Shown here one piece after another: positions 1,079 through 17,143 of a stretch of DNA of 24,836 bases. The notes under the pieces were generated by a model. It worked only from the letters and a program-made list of their open reading frames with translations. It did not search any database and was not told the origin of the DNA. The DNA comes from a virus. Numbering within the stretch: position 1 is the first letter of the stretch; every line of letters starts with the position of its first letter. The translations under genes and the position numbers were made by a program. The DNA is taken from the IMG/VR virus record IMGVR_UViG_3300025750_000007, positions 1 to 24,836 of that record. One strand, 5' to 3'.

Positions 1079-1356
1079 TACGGCAGATCCTCAATAGCTA
1101 TCCATGGAGGGTTGGTGAGCCTCGGGACTCTAACCCGAGCAGGCGCGACCGCAGTCACAGCCTTGTCAAATGCGCTCACCATATTGGATGTACCGTTTGC
1201 AATTCTTCGTAGGGTTCCTATGTCTGGATATGAAGAAAGCCCCACCTGTCCCCCGACTATGCGAAGGGATGAGTGGGGCGTATAGTTATAAGAATCCTGT
1301 ATATCCGATAGAAACTGATGTTTCGCGCTTGCCGGCGCGGCTACGAGGGTCACCAT
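1078..1356 (-). CDS. hypothetical protein immediately upstream of terS
   Basis: This is an open frame of up to 92 aa that ends in a TAATG junction with terS, the coupling typical of real genes here. The C-terminal half reads like protein (MVSAFDKAVTAVAPARV, then PRLTNPPWIAIEDLP). No Shine-Dalgarno sequence precedes the first ATG at 1356. The promoter just upstream would start RNA at about 1361, so that ATG would be nearly leaderless. An alternative start is the ATG at 1182 (34 aa), also without a good ribosome site. A 7-bp hairpin at 1239-1279 lies inside the frame. I recognise no domain. It may be a small real gene or only the terminase leader. Confidence 0.35.
   Translation of the reverse strand: MVTLVAAPASAKHQFLSDIQDSYNYTPHSSLRIVGGQVGLSSYPDIGTLRRIANGTSNMVSAFDKAVTAVAPARVRVPRLTNPPWIAIEDLP
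1239..1279 (-). other. hairpin in the terminase leader, possible attenuator
   Basis: The arms GCCCCAC and GTGGGGC form a 7-bp stem around a 27-nt loop. On the minus strand the stem is followed by CTTTCTTC, a mixed U-rich tract. It sits about 80-120 nt after the predicted start of the terminase transcript, so it could attenuate or terminate part of the transcription. The large loop makes this uncertain. Confidence 0.3.
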
Positions 1357-3528: not shown

Positions 3529-3775
3529 GCGTCACCCCCTCTTTCTCCATCGGCAACAGTTGCATCGGAAAGTCCTGCGGCTCGATTCGCCCGAACAGCT
3601 CAATCACTTCTTCTTTGCTGATCCTATTCACTAGCCCAACCATGACGGTCGCGCTTGCCCGCAACATTGCCGCCTGTAGCCTTTCTGCATCAATCGGCGG
3701 ATAGACAATGTGGTACGAGGGGATGTTTAGAACCTTTGATTTGCGCGTCTCACGATGCCGATGCGTAGTCCTCAT
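3518..3775 (-). CDS. hypothetical protein, 85 aa
   Basis: The start ATG at 3775 overlaps the stop of the mini glycyl-radical-like gene as ATGA. The N-terminus is basic (MRTTHRHRETRKSKVLN). The middle has a hydrophobic helix (LQAAMLRASATVMVGLVN) followed by an acidic segment. I recognise no family. The gene is part of the tightly overlapping early operon. Confidence 0.65.
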   Translation of the reverse strand: MRTTHRHRETRKSKVLNIPSYHIVYPPIDAERLQAAMLRASATVMVGLVNRISKEEVIELFGRIEPQDFPMQLLPMEKEGVTHED

Positions 3776-3969
3776 TTGGTCTCCTTTGGCGTTGTTGTGG
3801 CCGTAAAGCATATTCTATCCGCCCATTCCGCCTTCTTCCCCTTGTTCCACTGGGCTACGGGTCTCAAATAACCAACAACCCTGCTATAGACCTCACACCT
3901 GGTACGCTTGGCTGCCGGGATGATGACACCGTTGTCCAGTTGGAGATCACCGTTCTGCAACTCTGTCAT
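3772..3969 (-). CDS. mini-protein resembling the C-terminal glycyl-radical segment of anaerobic ribonucleotide reductase (copy 1)
   Basis: The 65-aa product contains RTRCEVYSRVVGYLRPV followed by QWNKGKKAEWADR, which matches the C-terminal tail of class III ribonucleotide reductase NrdD, where the RVxGYL glycine carries the radical. The zinc-binding cysteine pairs of NrdD are absent, so this is the tail alone. Similar short phage proteins are often annotated as anaerobic ribonucleoside-triphosphate reductase, but their role is not established. A spare-part function like that of YfiD/GrcA is an inference. A second copy lies at 14356-14550. Start and stop both overlap neighbours (ATGA). Confidence 0.7.
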   Translation of the reverse strand: MTELQNGDLQLDNGVIIPAAKRTRCEVYSRVVGYLRPVAQWNKGKKAEWADRICFTATTTPKETK

Positions 3970-4238: not shown

Positions 4239-4666
4239 CCCGCCACCTCCTTTGTGGGCGCGAGGACGTTCGGAGCGAGAGCAGATGCGGCAACGATGTA
4301 TACGTACCCCTCTGTCGAAAACTTCTTTCGCAATTCCGGCACGCCTCCAACCAACAGGTCTCCATCATGCAATACTAAACCACGGGAGCCAACTGCTACT
4401 ATCCTCTCCCTCTCCTGCTCTTCCCCCTCTGCCACGCCTTCGGCACGAGCGGTAACAAGTTTGGCGTTCGCTTCTGACAATAAGTTGGCCACCTTTCGGA
4501 AATTGCTCCCTTGTAGTCCCTTATCGCGCTCCCCTTCTGCCACGCCTTCGGCATGGGAAACGGCGGCATAAGAATCAAGCAATCCAAGAAAGCAGGTAAT
4601 TTCCGAAAACGAAACGCCATCCGCCATATCAACTATGTGTCCGCGCAGTTCCTCAACCTTAGTCAT
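4235..4666 (-). CDS. hypothetical protein with an internal duplication, 143 aa
   Basis: The start follows GAGGAGGTAAA and overlaps the preceding stop as ATGA. The protein has helical N- and C-terminal parts and two copies of a short acidic unit, AEGVAEGERDK near residues 39-49 and AEGVAEGEEQERER near 75-88. These are encoded by an 18-bp direct repeat 108 bp apart. The unit is probably part of a charged coiled coil. No family is recognised. Confidence 0.65.
   Translation of the reverse strand: MTKVEELRGHIVDMADGVSFSEITCFLGLLDSYAAVSHAEGVAEGERDKGLQGSNFRKVANLLSEANAKLVTARAEGVAEGEEQERERIVAVGSRGLVLHDGDLLVGGVPELRKKFSTEGYVYIVAASALAPNVLAPTKEVAG
4428..4553. repeat. 18-bp direct repeat inside the 143-aa gene
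   Basis: TCTGCCACGCCTTCGGCA occurs at 4428-4445 and again at 4536-4553. The spacing is exactly 108 bp (36 codons), so both copies are read in the same frame and give the repeated AEGVAEGE unit. This points to an in-frame duplication within the gene rather than a regulatory site. Confidence 0.75.
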
Positions 4667-5109
4667 TTTACCTCCTCAGGCCAGGCCAGTTGTTTCTCTT
4701 TCCGTTTCTCTTCTTTGCTTGTATCAGCAAATGCAAAGTTCCGCCGTGGACACCGCTCTGTTCCCTCATAGGGACAAGCCATAACAAACCGCGCCAGTTG
4801 TGCGACGTTGACTTGAATCTCGGGCTTCGGCTCGCTTCTGCGTACTGGAACCCCGGGATCTTTGGCAATCATGTAATGGTGCGGATTGTTCCGCTCAGAG
4901 AATATCTCGCGGTTGCCCCAGGCACACTGGAACAGGTGAGTTCCTTCGGGTACCTCCTCAAGCGCGTCCACGATGTCGCCGTGACAAACAGACGTCCAAA
5001 ACGTATGATCATCCATTCCTGCCAGTTCCTCACGCACAAGCATCTCGAGAGGTTCTATGTTCCGGCTTAACTGAGCAAGACGCCCCATAACGCTACTGAT
5101 TTCGTCCAT
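4663..5109 (-). CDS. hypothetical protein, 148 aa
   Basis: The ATG at 5109 follows GAGGTGAAGTG. The N-terminal 45 residues are helical (SSVMGRLAQLSRNIEPLEML). A middle segment carries HGDIVDALEEVPEGTHLFQC and NPHHYMIAKDPG. The C-terminal part is basic, with CPYEGTERCPRRNF that could bind zinc with nearby Cys and His residues. The pattern is compatible with a small replication or DNA-modification accessory protein, but I recognise no family. It is coupled to the genes on both sides. Confidence 0.65.
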   Translation of the reverse strand: MDEISSVMGRLAQLSRNIEPLEMLVREELAGMDDHTFWTSVCHGDIVDALEEVPEGTHLFQCAWGNREIFSERNNPHHYMIAKDPGVPVRRSEPKPEIQVNVAQLARFVMACPYEGTERCPRRNFAFADTSKEEKRKEKQLAWPEEVK

Positions 5110-5113
5110 CACT

Positions 5114-5482
5114 TCACCTCGGGCGCGAGGCAAGAACGGTGAACACAACGTCTGCCAGAGCGTCAGCAAGGGTTTTTGCCCTCGTTTCAACCGTGCCGAT
5201 AGGAAAGGCACTGTCACTGAATGCCACTACTATTTCATCTGCGGCGTTTGCCATGATATATTCAAAATACCCACGTCCCAGAAGCCACGATAGAAGCGTG
5301 TCGGCACGGTAGGCGGGGTATTCATACAATTTTGTATTGGCAAACTGTTCGACAAAACTCGTGTCCAGCGAATAGTCGTACTTACCCATGTATATTGCGT
5401 CACAGGGATAACCTTCATCTTTCTTCATAAATTGCATCTTTGCCAACTGCTTGCTTTTTTCCAGGCCCGTATATTCAACCAC
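5114..5482 (-). CDS. hypothetical protein, 122 aa
   Basis: The start is a GTG at 5482 with an ideal AAAGGAGG seven bases upstream; it overlaps the end of the replication gene by eight bases. The product has a mixed alpha/beta pattern, with DEGYPCDAIYMGKYDYSLDT in the first half and two hydrophobic segments (DTLLSWLLGRGYFEYIM, EIVVAFSDSAFPIG). I recognise no domain. Its place directly after the replication initiator suggests, but does not show, a role in replication. Confidence 0.65.
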   Translation of the reverse strand: MVEYTGLEKSKQLAKMQFMKKDEGYPCDAIYMGKYDYSLDTSFVEQFANTKLYEYPAYRADTLLSWLLGRGYFEYIMANAADEIVVAFSDSAFPIGTVETRAKTLADALADVVFTVLASRPR

Positions 5483-6509
5483 GATTTACCTCCTTTGTCT
5501 CTGCTTTGGATTCCGCTGTCTTAATGCGGATTGCCTTCTTGTACATGGCATAGTCTGCGTCTTCAAAGTACACCAGCCGATTCTTCTTCGCCTCATTGAA
5601 CGCCCGCATAAAAGCATCAGCGCGGGCAAGAGGGTCAACGAAACGATCAAAGTCCATGTCGGGATTCTGCTGAACCCATTGTCTCAGACTGATTGCCTTG
5701 ACTGACGATTCTGCCATCCAGTTGCCAAAGTTGCGATAGATAGAAGCAGACGAAATATGCGTTGTCCAATACCCATCAGAATCAGAGGTAAGTCGCCACT
5801 CAATACCCTTTTTGATGACAGACTCAGAGTAGAACTGCAACAACAGCTTAAAGTTCCGCATATCGGCAGGGGTGGGCTGAGCGGGAATACCGCGCGAGGA
5901 ATAGAACCAGGAAGCCAACAGATAGGGAACAGAAGTCGTAACCTGGATTGCCTTGTCTGGTTTAGTCTCTGGTTCTTTGATGACTTCAGGAAGATTTTCG
6001 AAGAGAGGAGCGCCGGTTTTTTCATTTTCGGCGCAATCTTTTTCTTTTAATCCTTTATCTGTTGTAAGAGTATCTGTTGTGGGTACCGATTTCGGTACCA
6101 CCTCCGTAACCGATTTCGGTAACGTAACCGATTTCGGTAACGATTGCCAAGTGCCATAACGCTTGTTGAATTCATACATACAGATAACGCCGTAACCGAT
6201 TTCGGTTACGCCCCTATCATTACCGATTTCGGTTACGGTCGCTTTGCGTCCGGCGTACTTGATGATGATGTTGCGCTGGACAAGACGCTTGATAGTGGTG
6301 GCGACATGTTGCTTGCATATGCCAGTCCCATCAACCCACTGGCTTAGACTTATAAGGTCGGTTTTCTTCGACCAGCCATAGGTCTTGCGCCAGAGAAACC
6401 ATAAAACCCGCGACTCGTACCCGGACAACTGGGTACGCGCAAGGGTTTCGGCTATGCTGTTGACGATCCTAAGGTGGCCGTCTTCAAGTTGGGGATTTTC
6501 AAGACTCAT
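5475..6509 (-). CDS. phage replication initiator, lambda O-type
   Basis: The 344-aa product starts with an O-type winged-helix DNA-binding domain at about residues 8-100, with LSGYESRVLWFLWRKTYGWS, DLISLSQWVDGTGICKQHV and ATTIKRLVQRNII. A linker follows that is encoded by five iterons, then a helical C-terminal half that would contact a helicase or its loader. No helicase is visible in the window, so the host enzyme may be recruited. The ATG at 6509 has no Shine-Dalgarno of its own and sits inside a nine-residue leader ORF, pointing to translational coupling. No other in-frame start is available because TGA lies just upstream. Its promoter is at 6685-6712. Confidence 0.85.
   Translation of the reverse strand: MSLENPQLEDGHLRIVNSIAETLARTQLSGYESRVLWFLWRKTYGWSKKTDLISLSQWVDGTGICKQHVATTIKRLVQRNIIIKYAGRKATVTEIGNDRGVTEIGYGVICMYEFNKRYGTWQSLPKSVTLPKSVTEVVPKSVPTTDTLTTDKGLKEKDCAENEKTGAPLFENLPEVIKEPETKPDKAIQVTTSVPYLLASWFYSSRGIPAQPTPADMRNFKLLLQFYSESVIKKGIEWRLTSDSDGYWTTHISSASIYRNFGNWMAESSVKAISLRQWVQQNPDMDFDRFVDPLARADAFMRAFNEAKKNRLVYFEDADYAMYKKAIRIKTAESKAETKEVNRG
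6017..6233. other. putative phage replication origin: five iterons plus an AT-rich block inside the replication gene
   Basis: Five copies of the inverted-repeat unit ACCGATTTCGGT lie at 6085-6096, 6109-6120, 6127-6138, 6195-6206 and 6222-6233, mostly flanked by GTA or TAC. Next to them, at about 6017-6080, is a T-rich block on the plus strand. The layout copies lambda ori, where O-binding iterons and an AT-rich unwinding region lie inside gene O. Copies 1-3 are translated as PKSV and copies 4-5 as TEIG, so the DNA is conserved, not the protein. Confidence 0.8.
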
Positions 6510-6528
6510 TTGCCGCTGAGCAGTACAT
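6499..6528 (-). CDS. nine-residue leader peptide ORF overlapping the replication gene start
   Basis: ATG at 6528-6526 follows GGAGGTGAGT, the only good ribosome site before the replication gene. It opens a ten-codon frame (MYCSAANES, then TGA at 6501-6499). The replication gene's ATG lies within it, eight bases before the leader's stop. Ribosomes ending here could restart on the replication gene, giving translational coupling. Expression is not shown. Confidence 0.55.
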   Translation of the reverse strand: MYCSAANES

Positions 6529-6649
6529 ACTCACCTCCAAACCTAGTTAGGATTTTGCCATTCCTATTGGTGGGAGGCTCCGCACAAGACTCTCACCATA
6601 CACCATACAAAAGAAAGATGGAGGCGGCGCCGGTATGGTCGGCTGTCGA

Positions 6650-6664
6650 ACAGTAGCTAACTGT
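6650..6664. promoter_or_regulatory. operator-like near-palindrome downstream of the replication promoter
   Basis: ACAGTAGCTAACTGT is a near-perfect palindrome with ACAGT/ACTGT arms around AGCT. It lies about +14 to +28 relative to the start predicted from the promoter at 6685-6712, a position where a bound protein would block transcription. The protein that would bind it is unknown. Confidence 0.4.
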
Positions 6665-6684
6665 CCCAAGCCGTCTCCCATATC

Positions 6685-6712
6685 AGTATAGCAGAAACGA
6701 CTAGCCGCACAA
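6685..6712 (-). promoter_or_regulatory. extended -10 promoter for the replication gene
   Basis: On the minus strand TGCTATACT (extended -10; hexamer at 6690-6685) is preceded, with a 16-bp spacer, by TTGTGC (6712-6707), a weak -35. The extended TGn motif compensates for the poor -35. Transcription would start near 6678 and leave a leader of about 170 nt before the replication gene. Confidence 0.55.
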
Positions 6713-6752
6713 CCCAGCAGCGGGGACTCGCGCCGGGGGGGGGTATGTTCGT

Positions 6753-6872
6753 CTAGACTATCGATGGATGCCCAGTTGTTCTGTCTGAGCTATTTCCATT
6801 TTGGAAACAGTTGATACCCCCTAGTGTATACCCTTTGCTGGATGCCGCATGAATAGCGGGCAGATTTTCCAT
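6753..6872 (-). CDS. possible 39-aa ORF coupled to the methyltransferase gene
   Basis: An ATG overlaps the methyltransferase stop as TGATG, and the frame runs 39 codons to TAG at 6755-6753. There is no Shine-Dalgarno sequence, the product is low-complexity polar (QNGNSSDRTTGHPSIV) and it contains the inverted repeat at 6793-6807. The rest of the 6529-6871 gap holds a promoter, an operator-like palindrome and a run of nine G residues. I consider expression possible but unproven. Confidence 0.25.
   Translation of the reverse strand: MENLPAIHAASSKGYTLGGINCFQNGNSSDRTTGHPSIV
6793..6807. repeat. short perfect inverted repeat in the gap before the replication gene
   Basis: TTTCCA and TGGAAA flank TTT to form a 15-bp inverted repeat about 85-100 bp upstream of the replication promoter's -35. 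It could be a protein-binding site or a small hairpin. No T-tract follows, so it is not a convincing terminator. Confidence 0.3.
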
Positions 6873-8645: not shown

Positions 8646-9473
8646 TCACGAGGCCTTCTTTTCTGTTTTCTTCTTGTTCGTCGCGCAGAAGTCCTGCAAC
8701 TGCTTGATCATCACCTTGCCAGCCGCCAGTAGGTCATCATGCTTCATGGCATCCATATCTGCAGGTTCGGGCAGATGGTCAAATGCAGACGCTTGATGCA
8801 GACTGTCCAACCACTCCTCACGGGTATAGGTCTTAGGACCGTAGATATAGGTCTCAGGTGGTGTGGCTGGTTCGGTCGACTCTTCGGGAATGTCGGGAAA
8901 CGGCATAGAGGTGTCGGCAGCTTCTTCGGGTGTCGGTTCGTCGCCGTCCTTGAACTCCTTGCTCTGCTCAATCATGGTTCGGATCCATTCGGGCAGCTTT
9001 TCCCACACCACATCCTTTCCATTTTCCACATCATAGGAAATCATAGGATTGCTCTGTTCGGGCACGGTTGTTCCTTTTGGTACAGACATCACGCCCGCCA
9101 CGTTCGCGTACGTCTTGCCGCCACTCTCAGCATGAATCACGGAGAGCAAACACGGAGCGCCCAACATAGAACCAAGCGCGAACCCCGCTTTCTCTTCTTT
9201 CTCGGTGATGCCTCTTCCCAACCAGCTTTCAAGGTCTTTCCTCAGGCTAGCCTTGTCGTTAAGGCTGAGCGTATATTTCTTGCTAATAGCCAAAGGTCTG
9301 CCATCATCCATTAATTCGTTACAGAGTTCAAACTGTACCTGGATTTTGTGACTCCAGTTCCCGAACTTCTCTGAATATTGCGTTCCCAGATCAATCATTC
9401 CATAGCAACGCGCGACGTGTGTTCCGGCCGGTATAAGGATGCGTTCGCTACCCTCGTTCTTAGCCACTAACAT
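8646..9473 (-). CDS. phage single-stranded-DNA-binding-like protein
   Basis: The ATG at 9473 follows AAAGGAGACAACCA. The 275-aa product begins with a strand-rich domain: ILIPAGTHVARCYGMIDLGT, the KIQVQFELCNEL segment, then SKKYTLSLNDKASLRKDL. This pattern is seen in phage ssDNA-binding or recombination-associated proteins, where PAGTYxARCxxxxDLGTQ is a recurring signature. A proline- and acid-rich linker (DGDEPTPEEAADTSMPF) and a basic, lysine-rich tail follow. I infer a role in coating single strands during replication or recombination. The family is recognised by pattern only. Confidence 0.6.
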   Translation of the reverse strand: MLVAKNEGSERILIPAGTHVARCYGMIDLGTQYSEKFGNWSHKIQVQFELCNELMDDGRPLAISKKYTLSLNDKASLRKDLESWLGRGITEKEEKAGFALGSMLGAPCLLSVIHAESGGKTYANVAGVMSVPKGTTVPEQSNPMISYDVENGKDVVWEKLPEWIRTMIEQSKEFKDGDEPTPEEAADTSMPFPDIPEESTEPATPPETYIYGPKTYTREEWLDSLHQASAFDHLPEPADMDAMKHDDLLAAGKVMIKQLQDFCATNKKKTEKKAS

Positions 9474-9999
9474 TGGTTGTCTCCTTTGCCGCGATTGCGG
9501 CTTCCACCTCTTGTTTGAATAGAAAATTGTAGGCAATGGCGTTCATCTGCGCCATTCCTCTGCCAGTATGCTGATTGTGATGGATGCTTTGATGTAGTTT
9601 TGTGGGCATATAGATGACGTCAAGCCGATTGACGTGATGACCCTCACATCCCGAAAGGGGAGAGTTCAGAGGATTGAAACCGAGCGTGCGGCGCTTGGCG
9701 CGAGTTCTGGCGTCGGCCATTTTCTGACCGCCCCTCCAATGCGCAATAGCTATCTTCGCACACGTTTCAGGCGAAAGTTTGCGCCCCTGTTGCCATGCTG
9801 ACGTCTTTGTTCGCGTCTCGGGGGTAACGACGTGGCCCATAAGGATTTCAGATACCCTTGCCCGCGTTTCAGGTGATGGTCTAATCCCCATGCGCGTCGA
9901 AGATATCTTTGCCCGCGTTTCAATTGATGTGGTATGCCCCAATTTTGACGCAGACTCTTTGGCTCGCTGTTCGTCTGTCATGTGCTGTCCAAGCTTCAT
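9460..9999 (-). CDS. NUMOD3-HNH homing-type endonuclease, copy A
   Basis: The 179-aa product has N-terminal NUMOD3 DNA-binding repeats (units such as GHTTSIETRAKIS, GIRPSPETRARVS, GHVVTPETRTKTS, GRKLSPETCAKIA). A C-terminal HNH-like unit follows: KRRTLGFNPLNSPLSGCEGH, HVNRLDVIY, then SIHHNQHTGRGMAQMNA. Family members cut DNA to spread their own gene. The ATG at 9999 follows AAAGGAGTGTGAGACA. The gene overlaps the ssDNA-binding-like gene by 14 bases at its end. Unlike its neighbours, it has its own promoter and a folded leader. It is similar in its C-terminal half to copies B and C. Confidence 0.8.
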   Translation of the reverse strand: MKLGQHMTDEQRAKESASKLGHTTSIETRAKISSTRMGIRPSPETRARVSEILMGHVVTPETRTKTSAWQQGRKLSPETCAKIAIAHWRGGQKMADARTRAKRRTLGFNPLNSPLSGCEGHHVNRLDVIYMPTKLHQSIHHNQHTGRGMAQMNAIAYNFLFKQEVEAAIAAKETTNVSG

Positions 10000-10034
10000 T
10001 GTCTCACACTCCTTTGTCTCCTTTGTTTTGATGG

Positions 10035-10094
10035 CAGCAGCCCCTAGAAAGGAGTCTAGTTTCACGTGGTTAATTACGCCACGCTAGGCTGCTG
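10035..10094 (-). promoter_or_regulatory. folded RNA leader of NUMOD3-HNH copy A
   Basis: An 8-bp outer stem pairs GGCTGCTG (10087-10094) with CAGCAGCC (10035-10042). It encloses a 5-bp hairpin CGTGG/CCACG (10065-10069 with 10079-10083) and a 5-bp hairpin CTAGA/TCTAG (10044-10048 with 10055-10059). Together they form a three-way junction in the leader between promoter and ribosome site. It may control endonuclease expression; RNA hairpins do this for phage T4 homing endonuclease genes. Confidence 0.5.
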
Positions 10095-13801: not shown

Positions 13802-14239
13802 TTATTGAGTTAATTCGCTAGTAAGCCAAGCCGTAGCAAGAGCATTGATCTGTTCCATCCCGCGACCAGTCCACTGGTTATGACTAATACTGCGGTGCAA
13901 TTCGCTCGGGATATAGATGATGTCGCTCTGATTGATGTGATGTGCTTCGCAACCATCAAACGGTTGATTCATGGGAACAAAACCCAACATGCGACGTTTG
14001 GCCTTGGATTTGCGCGTCCATACTTGTGTCCCGCCCCTCCACACGGCCACGGAAATTTTCATACGCATTTCGGGAGATACGAAATGGCCCATTTGCGCCA
14101 CAGACATTTTTGCACAAGCTTCTGGGGATACGTAATGACCCATGCGCGCTAATCGCTGTTTGTCTGTTATCGGAATTCCTTTTCTGGCGGCAGATATTTT
14201 TGCTCTGGTTTCTTCTGACTGAGAGTGTCCATATCCCAT
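13802..14239 (-). CDS. NUMOD3-HNH homing-type endonuclease, copy B
   Basis: The 145-aa product has about four short NUMOD3-type repeats (SEETRAKISAARKG, SPEACAKMSVAQMG, SPEMRMKISVAVWR). The same C-terminal HNH-like unit as copies A and C follows: KRRMLGFVPMNQPFDGCEAH, HINQSDIIYIP and SISHNQWTGRGMEQINA. The start ATG at 14239 has AGGATAGGTGAAAGACA upstream. It lies between the mini glycyl-radical-like gene and the peptidase with gaps on both sides, unlike the overlapping style of the rest of the window, which suggests insertion. Confidence 0.8.
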   Translation of the reverse strand: MGYGHSQSEETRAKISAARKGIPITDKQRLARMGHYVSPEACAKMSVAQMGHFVSPEMRMKISVAVWRGGTQVWTRKSKAKRRMLGFVPMNQPFDGCEAHHINQSDIIYIPSELHRSISHNQWTGRGMEQINALATAWLTSELTQ

Positions 14240-14340: not shown

Positions 14341-14367
14341 AGTATAATACTCTTTCTAGCCGTGCAA
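14341..14367 (-). promoter_or_regulatory. weak promoter-like sequence before NUMOD3-HNH copy B
   Basis: On the minus strand TATACT (14346-14341), with an overlapping TATTAT, has TTGCAC (14367-14362) 15 bp upstream. The spacing is shorter than ideal, so activity is uncertain. The -35 overlaps the end of the upstream gene, as for copy A. Confidence 0.35.
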
Positions 14368-14550
14368 GACAGCAGGAGAAACCGCGAAAGGAACCCTGTC
14401 CGCCCATTCAGCCTTCTTCCCCTTGTTCCACTGGGAAACAGGCCTCAGATAGCCAACAACGCGGCTGTAAACCTCAGTCCTGGTACGCTTGGCTGCCGGA
14501 ATGACAATGCCGTTGTCCAGGAGAAGATCACCGTTTGTCAATTCTGTCAT
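14356..14550 (-). CDS. mini-protein resembling the C-terminal glycyl-radical segment of anaerobic ribonucleotide reductase (copy 2)
   Basis: The 64-aa product matches copy 1 (3772-3969) closely through the first 52 residues: MTELTNGDLLLDNGIVIPAA, RTRTEVYSRVVGYLRPV and QWNKGKKAEWADR. It then ends differently (VPFAVSPAVLHG). The cysteine before the motif in copy 1 is threonine here. The DNA is visibly similar too, so the duplication or transfer is fairly recent. The start overlaps the holin gene's stop as ATGA and has no Shine-Dalgarno, so translation is probably coupled to the holin. Its place in the lysis cassette is unexplained. Confidence 0.7.
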   Translation of the reverse strand: MTELTNGDLLLDNGIVIPAAKRTRTEVYSRVVGYLRPVSQWNKGKKAEWADRVPFAVSPAVLHG

Positions 14551-16549: not shown

Positions 16550-17143
16550 CTATGTCCAGTTTTCCATCAGGTACTGTCCTGCTAGTGCGTTCATCTGTGC
16601 CATGCCCCGTCCGGTGTATTGGTCGTGGTAGATACTGCGATGCAACTTCCTCGGTATGTGAATCACATCATTCTGGTTGATGTGGTGAGCCTCACAATCC
16701 ATAAACCAAGAGTTCAATGGATTAAAACCAAGTAGGCGGCGCTTGGAACGACGTTTACGCATAGATACCCTTGGTCCGCCCTTCCAATGTCCTATACCAA
16801 TTTTCACCCGAGTTTCATCTGACGGGGAAACACCCTTATTCCATGCTGGTTTTCCAATAAGCGCAGCAGACAACCTTGCGCACGTCTCAGGTGATACCGT
16901 CTTCCCCTTTTCTGCTAAAGCCTGTTTTGCTCTTGTTTCAGGGGATGGAATACGCCCCATTCCCGCAGCAGAGATTTTTGCTCGAGTCTCATCTGACGGT
17001 GAAATTCCCTTGTTCCAAGCCTTCTGTCCTTTATGCAATGCGGACATCTTTGCTCTAGTTTCAAGAGATACAACACGTCCAATCCAAGCCGCAGACATCT
17101 TTGCTCGCGCCTCAGGAGAGGGATGGGTTCCTAGTCTCATCAT
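16550..17143 (-). CDS. NUMOD3-HNH homing-type endonuclease, copy C
   Basis: The 197-aa product has the most NUMOD3 repeats of the three copies, about six (SPEARAKMSAAWIGR, SDETRAKISAAGMGR, SPETRAKQALAEKGK, SPETCARLSAALIGK and others). Two longer units are interrupted by a WNKG segment. The shared C-terminal unit follows: KRRLLGFNPLNSWFMDCEAH, HINQNDVIHIP and SIYHDQYTGRGMAQMNA. Unlike A and B, it has no leader or promoter of its own. Its start overlaps the stop of the tail gene as ATGATGA, so it is expressed with the tail genes. Confidence 0.8.
   Translation of the reverse strand: MMRLGTHPSPEARAKMSAAWIGRVVSLETRAKMSALHKGQKAWNKGISPSDETRAKISAAGMGRIPSPETRAKQALAEKGKTVSPETCARLSAALIGKPAWNKGVSPSDETRVKIGIGHWKGGPRVSMRKRRSKRRLLGFNPLNSWFMDCEAHHINQNDVIHIPRKLHRSIYHDQYTGRGMAQMNALAGQYLMENWT

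Follow-up and report, generated by a model that had tools for sequence, protein, structure and literature searches.

Lambda O dimers bind iterons that lie inside the O gene itself, and the AT-rich region next to these iterons opens (PMC5043065; PMC7466680). The four annotated lambda iterons start at nt 349, 369, 393 and 416 of O, with a spacing of 20-24 bp, and occupy three phases of the reading frame. They all lie in the linker-coding part of the gene. The origin in gene 15 of phi80 is similar, with four annotated in-gene binding sites spaced ~21 bp apart, but it uses the iteron TTCCC-GAAAAC-GGGAA. The Shiga-toxin phages P27 and 933W have extra iterons upstream of the lambda set that are needed for plasmid replication; these copies add 13 residues that are not predicted to touch DNA, and the available portions of the report describe no wing-loop copies (PMC7466680). 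Arrays of initiator sites beside an AT-rich tract are also found in the iteron plasmids P1, RK2 and R6K, however, their iterons are mostly direct repeats that bind monomers (PMC5043065) and not dyads in the reading frame of the initiator.

A gene of the lambda O type is present in the window, i.e. the whole stretch of 24,836 nucleotides of viral DNA that was analysed, and a lambda-type replication origin is very likely embedded in it (Table 1). This reading is supported by the O-like gene, by repeats kept as DNA in two reading frames, by their stereotyped spacing, by covariation between one protein residue and one repeat base, and by the adjacent AT-rich tract. The layout matches that of the lambda ori, in which in-gene dyad iterons in more than one frame are followed by an AT-rich tract, and both initiators have a Phage_rep_O winged-helix domain. 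The window differs from lambda in the iteron sequence, in having five iterons instead of four, and in having two of them outside the linker, in the stretch that encodes the wing loop. A hidden lambda iteron 68 bp upstream, or any other wing copy, was looked for in lambda and not found, and no wing copies were found in phi80. The preliminary description of this DNA implied that iterons read in two frames are a novelty. This was overstated, since the annotated lambda iterons are already in three phases and the two-frame argument therefore applies to lambda as well; multi-frame iterons are not new in principle.

Table 1. Features of the initiator gene and its putative origin (window positions).
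Feature	Position	Strand	Basis or remark
O-like replication initiator gene, 344 aa	5475..6509	(-)	Pfam Phage_rep_O E=1.2e-21; PHROG 'replication initiation O-like' 8.8e-24
Winged-helix DNA-binding domain, residues ~7-115	6165..6491	(-)	AlphaFold2 model
Predicted recognition helix, residues 66-78, with covarying H68 (codon 6306-6308)	6276..6314	(-)	Model and covariation
Iteron 1 (gene order), wing copy, frame TEIG	6220..6235	(-)	12-mer 6222-6233
Iteron 2, wing copy, frame TEIG	6193..6208	(-)	12-mer 6195-6206; 68 bp to iteron 3
Iteron 3, linker copy, frame PKSV	6125..6140	(-)	12-mer 6127-6138
Iteron 4, linker copy, frame PKSV	6107..6122	(-)	12-mer 6109-6120
Iteron 5, linker copy, frame PKSV	6083..6098	(-)	12-mer 6085-6096
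Putative DNA-unwinding element, 15-bp tandem ACAACAGATACTCTTACAACAGA	6058..6080	(-)	4 mismatches to lambda's AT-rich 23-mer
AT-richest 50 bp of gene, 72% A+T	6017..6066	(-)	Composition scan; overlaps, then extends past, the putative unwinding element

Residues 7-91 of the initiator match Phage_rep_O (PF04492) with 77.4 bits against a curated cut-off of 28.7, which places the protein in this family. The AlphaFold2 model (mean pLDDT 83) has the helix and strand order H-E-H-H-E-E, which is the winged-helix order. MarR-type and DnaD N-terminal winged helices were listed when the model was searched with Foldseek, none with E<=1e-3. Residue 68 lies in the model close to the beginning of the motif's third helix, which is usually the recognition helix of winged-helix proteins. 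The wing loop is a low-confidence part of the model and is encoded by iterons 1 and 2. Weak PDB sequence matches of C-terminal residues 262-329 to DNMT3B (E 1.6e-6) and calpain small subunit chains are probably due to chance.

As had been described, the 12-mer ACCGATTTCGGT occurs five times within 149 bp and the copies encode two different peptides. An exact search of the window gave exactly five copies (starts 6085, 6109, 6127, 6195 and 6222 on the (+) strand), all within the 344-codon frame and none outside the 6085-6233 array. Translation of all five agrees with the assignment of the first three copies on the (+) strand to PKSV and of the last two to TEIG; in gene order TEIG is encoded at nt 276 and 303 and PKSV at nt 371, 389 and 413. 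When up to two mismatches are allowed there are 13 matches in the window compared to 1.9 expected, a number reached in 0 of 100 shuffles. The repeat is also a dyad, which was absent from the earlier account. The most symmetric copy is GTAACCGA-TT-TCGGTTAC, and perfect arms are 5-9 bp long.

The AT-richest 50-mer of the gene starts at nt 443, directly after the last iteron, and is at the 99th percentile of the gene. A similar bias is seen in 80 relatives, where the 60 nt after the array have an A+T content of 0.66 versus 0.58 for the gene (Wilcoxon p 3e-12), although the tract of one close relative, L010, is unremarkable (69th percentile). The AT-rich 23-mer of lambda, ACAAAAGACACTATTACAAAAGA, is found exactly in 10 of 119 O-like genes, lambda included, and within two mismatches in 38 of the 119, compared to 0.0 and 3.25 expected from synonymous shuffles. 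At a lax threshold of six mismatches the excess is modest (73 versus 52.6 expected), and only the strict thresholds are convincing. The element is read as TKDTITKD in most genes and as IQKTLLQK in others. The form in the window is degenerate, with mismatches at 4 of 23 positions. Its conservation points to a sequence-specific unwinding element, beyond mere AT-richness. No description of a 23-mer conserved across the family in two frames was found in the searched literature. The genes with the exact 23-mer are L040, L041, L045, L047, L059, L060, L106, L118, L173 and L270, and many of them have very different iterons and proteins, with the 23-mer in two reading frames. A lambda-type 23-mer, ACAAAAGA[A/C]ACTATTACAAAAGA, also occurs in L296 at 1307-1329 (-), within a gene of no apparent resemblance to O, where it encodes HTKETITKEK.

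Could the repeats be an operator, through which the O-like protein or another phage regulator controls transcription of the gene while replication starts elsewhere? The dyads to which winged-helix proteins bind often serve as operators. In addition, two related viral contigs (L014 1513-1545 and L015 1156-1188) contain pairs of the exact 12-mer ACCGAAATCGGT at sites that look non-coding and have no O-like gene; the members of each pair are 21 bp apart and perhaps form an operator there. In the window, however, the array lies within the gene, 270-430 bp into its coding sequence, a search of 6000-6800 gave no promoter-like site, and the AT-rich tract adjoins the array in a layout like that of the lambda and phi80 origins. 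An operator is therefore an improbable explanation of the array, and an origin remains the preferred one.

Why would the same 12 bases be kept in two reading frames? It could be proposed that selection maintains the repeated peptides, PKSV and TEIG, because they fall in the flexible wing loop and linker, and in the model these are low-confidence, probably disordered stretches that would tolerate repeats. Several observations make this highly unlikely. The two peptides are unrelated, yet they are encoded by identical bases. When codons were shuffled synonymously 20,000 times, with the protein and codon usage held fixed, the most frequent 12-mer reached three copies in only 5 shuffles and never exceeded three, compared to the five observed, which speaks against maintenance through the protein only. 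Relatives keep the positions and both frames at the DNA level. The earlier proposal that the DNA itself is under selection is thus borne out by the shuffles and the relatives together, but the exact 12-mer is not what is conserved. Two viral contigs, L006 and L007, encode the same initiator protein as the window. L010, which is 66% identical to it in amino acid sequence over the N-terminal 143 residues, and L011 (59%) do not have the exact 12-mer. At the matching places they have an altered iteron, GTACC-GAAATC-CGTAC, present once in the wing, where it is read in the TEI frame, and three to five times in the linker, where it is read in the PKSV frame. L026 and L027 keep the core of the window iteron, TTACCGAAATC, likewise in two frames. 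The absence of repeats from close relatives, named in the earlier account as a refutation, was thus not observed. What is conserved, as judged from these alignments, is the set of iteron positions and frames, while the exact sequence changes as a set.

The same pattern is seen in a second pair of genes. An ungapped comparison of the first 450 nt gives 78% identity between L043 and L116, which have six iterons at identical positions. All six differ in concert, CGTTATCAAAAACGATAACG versus CGTTACCCAAAAAGGTAACG, minor variants aside. Both peptides are altered at once (LSKTI becomes LPKKV, and in the other frame VIKNDN becomes VTQKGN), but the DNA dyad is kept, and in the recognition helix KKPN is replaced by SKVH. 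Judging by the two sequences, selection on the peptides alone is no explanation for this concerted change.

A paired search of viral contigs for the exact 12-mer returned the same phage (two contigs) and four other contigs, in which no O-like gene was traced for the pairs. A scan of a genome collection gave only two relatives, both in metagenome bins of Deltaproteobacteria.

The wider family was assembled from viral-contig scans, one genome scan and named phages, and comprises 252 O-like genes, of which 119 are non-redundant. Each was compared with synonymous-codon shuffles for 12-mer copies with one mismatch allowed (p<=0.01). In-gene repeats beyond the synonymous-codon expectation are present in 83 of the 119 genes; 73 of these 83 have copies in more than one frame and 12 have them in all three. 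The repeat sequences vary between phages, for example CGTTATC-AAAAAA-GATAACG, TTACC-GAAAAA-GGTAA and TTAGC-AAAAAA-GCTA, but they have in common a dyad with a 6-bp, usually A-rich centre and a stereotyped spacing. Neighbouring copies have a gap of 55-80 bp in 50 cases, and in 34 of these the gap is exactly 68 bp; it separates the last wing copy from the first linker copy. A wing-to-linker gap of 60-75 bp is found in 46 of the 60 genes with clear dyads, and the shorter spacings cluster at 18 and 21-24 bp. None of the spacings 68, 22 and 23 bp is divisible by three, which forces a change of frame between copies. Read in the third frame, most copies in the family have a stop codon in their right arm, which closes this frame; 302 copies are distributed over the three phases as 159, 131 and 12. 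The fixed 68-bp gap may alternatively reflect common descent, because a shift of one or two bases would break the gene. A recent tandem duplication or gene conversion without function could produce copies as identical as those in the window, but this can hardly be the explanation, as the sequence between copies is mostly unrepeated and distant relatives with different repeat sequences at the same positions and spacing contradict it.

Which part of the initiator would read the repeats? Covariation was examined in a set of 60 genes, for which the alignment and the repeat registers were picked by analysis scripts. Counted from the centre, the second arm base can be C, T or G. Among 85 protein columns, and leaving aside those that the iteron itself encodes, residue 68 has the top association with this base (z 11.4, 0.94 bits, full set of 60 genes). 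At core-type sites, C occurs with H or R in 16 of 19 cases, T with N, T or A in 15 of 17, and G with S in 4 of 5. The phi80 protein has H at the aligned position, as does the window protein. In the subset restricted to C versus T, T26 scores slightly above H68, a ranking that may have its source in relatedness. In a tree-based test on independent, path-disjoint pairs, residue 68 differs in all of the 17 pairs whose bases are different, against 8 of the 21 pairs whose bases agree (Fisher p 6e-5), and H68 ranks first of 79 columns. Residue 68 is probably the amino acid that reads the repeats. The columns G96 and T93 also scored high, but both are encoded by the iteron itself and were left out of account as circular.

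Binding, melting and initiation would all take place at this array. The five dyad-symmetric iterons would be bound by dimers of the O-like protein, in which residue 68, close to the N-terminus of the recognition helix, would read the second arm base. The assembled complex would bend and wrap the DNA, and a helicase would be loaded at the AT-rich tract immediately downstream in the gene once the complex had melted it. In a further difference from lambda, no P gene, helicase or loader resembling lambda P was recognised in those genes of the window that were tested, the window being a fragment, so that the helicase-loading step is unsupported in this phage. For the downstream frames 4663-5217 (searched against Pfam and PHROGs) and 5114-5482 (searched against Pfam) no family was matched. 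The GC skew has no turning point at the array.

A broader reading, whose chances are judged evenly balanced, is that in a large branch of O-like genes the origin extends into the coding sequence of the DNA-binding domain, so that the wing loop of the initiator would be encoded by one or two of its own binding sites, set off from the other iterons by a constant 68 bp. Origin specificity would be set by a simple code in which H or R at residue 68 goes with C as the second arm base, N, T or A with T, and S with G, and all copies in both frames would switch together when residue 68 changes, giving rise to new replication-specificity groups. No description of wing-loop-encoding copies, of the 68-bp gap or of the correlation between residue 68 and the base was found in the searched literature, the scope of which stopped short of the 1979 lambdoid-origin comparisons, and the novelty of the wing copies is uncertain. 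The comparisons demonstrate from sequence alone that an origin inside a gene evolves as DNA and is at the same time translated in two frames. They also yield a candidate code between one initiator residue and one origin base, which could become a route to predicting origins and replication specificity in many uncultured phages.

Other genes in the window deserve mention. Two very similar stand-alone proteins of ~65 aa are encoded at 3772-3969 (-) and 14356-14550 (-). Both match only the last ~32 positions of anaerobic NrdD (PF13597 531-562; E 3e-9 and 1e-9) and contain RVVGYLRP, by appearance a glycyl-radical motif. By analogy they are possibly detached radical-domain spare parts; GrcA is a comparable spare part for pyruvate formate-lyase. 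Three related frames at 9460-10065, 13802-14239 and 16550-17143 (-) have NUMOD3-type repeats (E 0.005, 1e-7 and 3e-23) and a similar C-terminal region, and they probably represent a homing endonuclease family that has multiplied within one phage.
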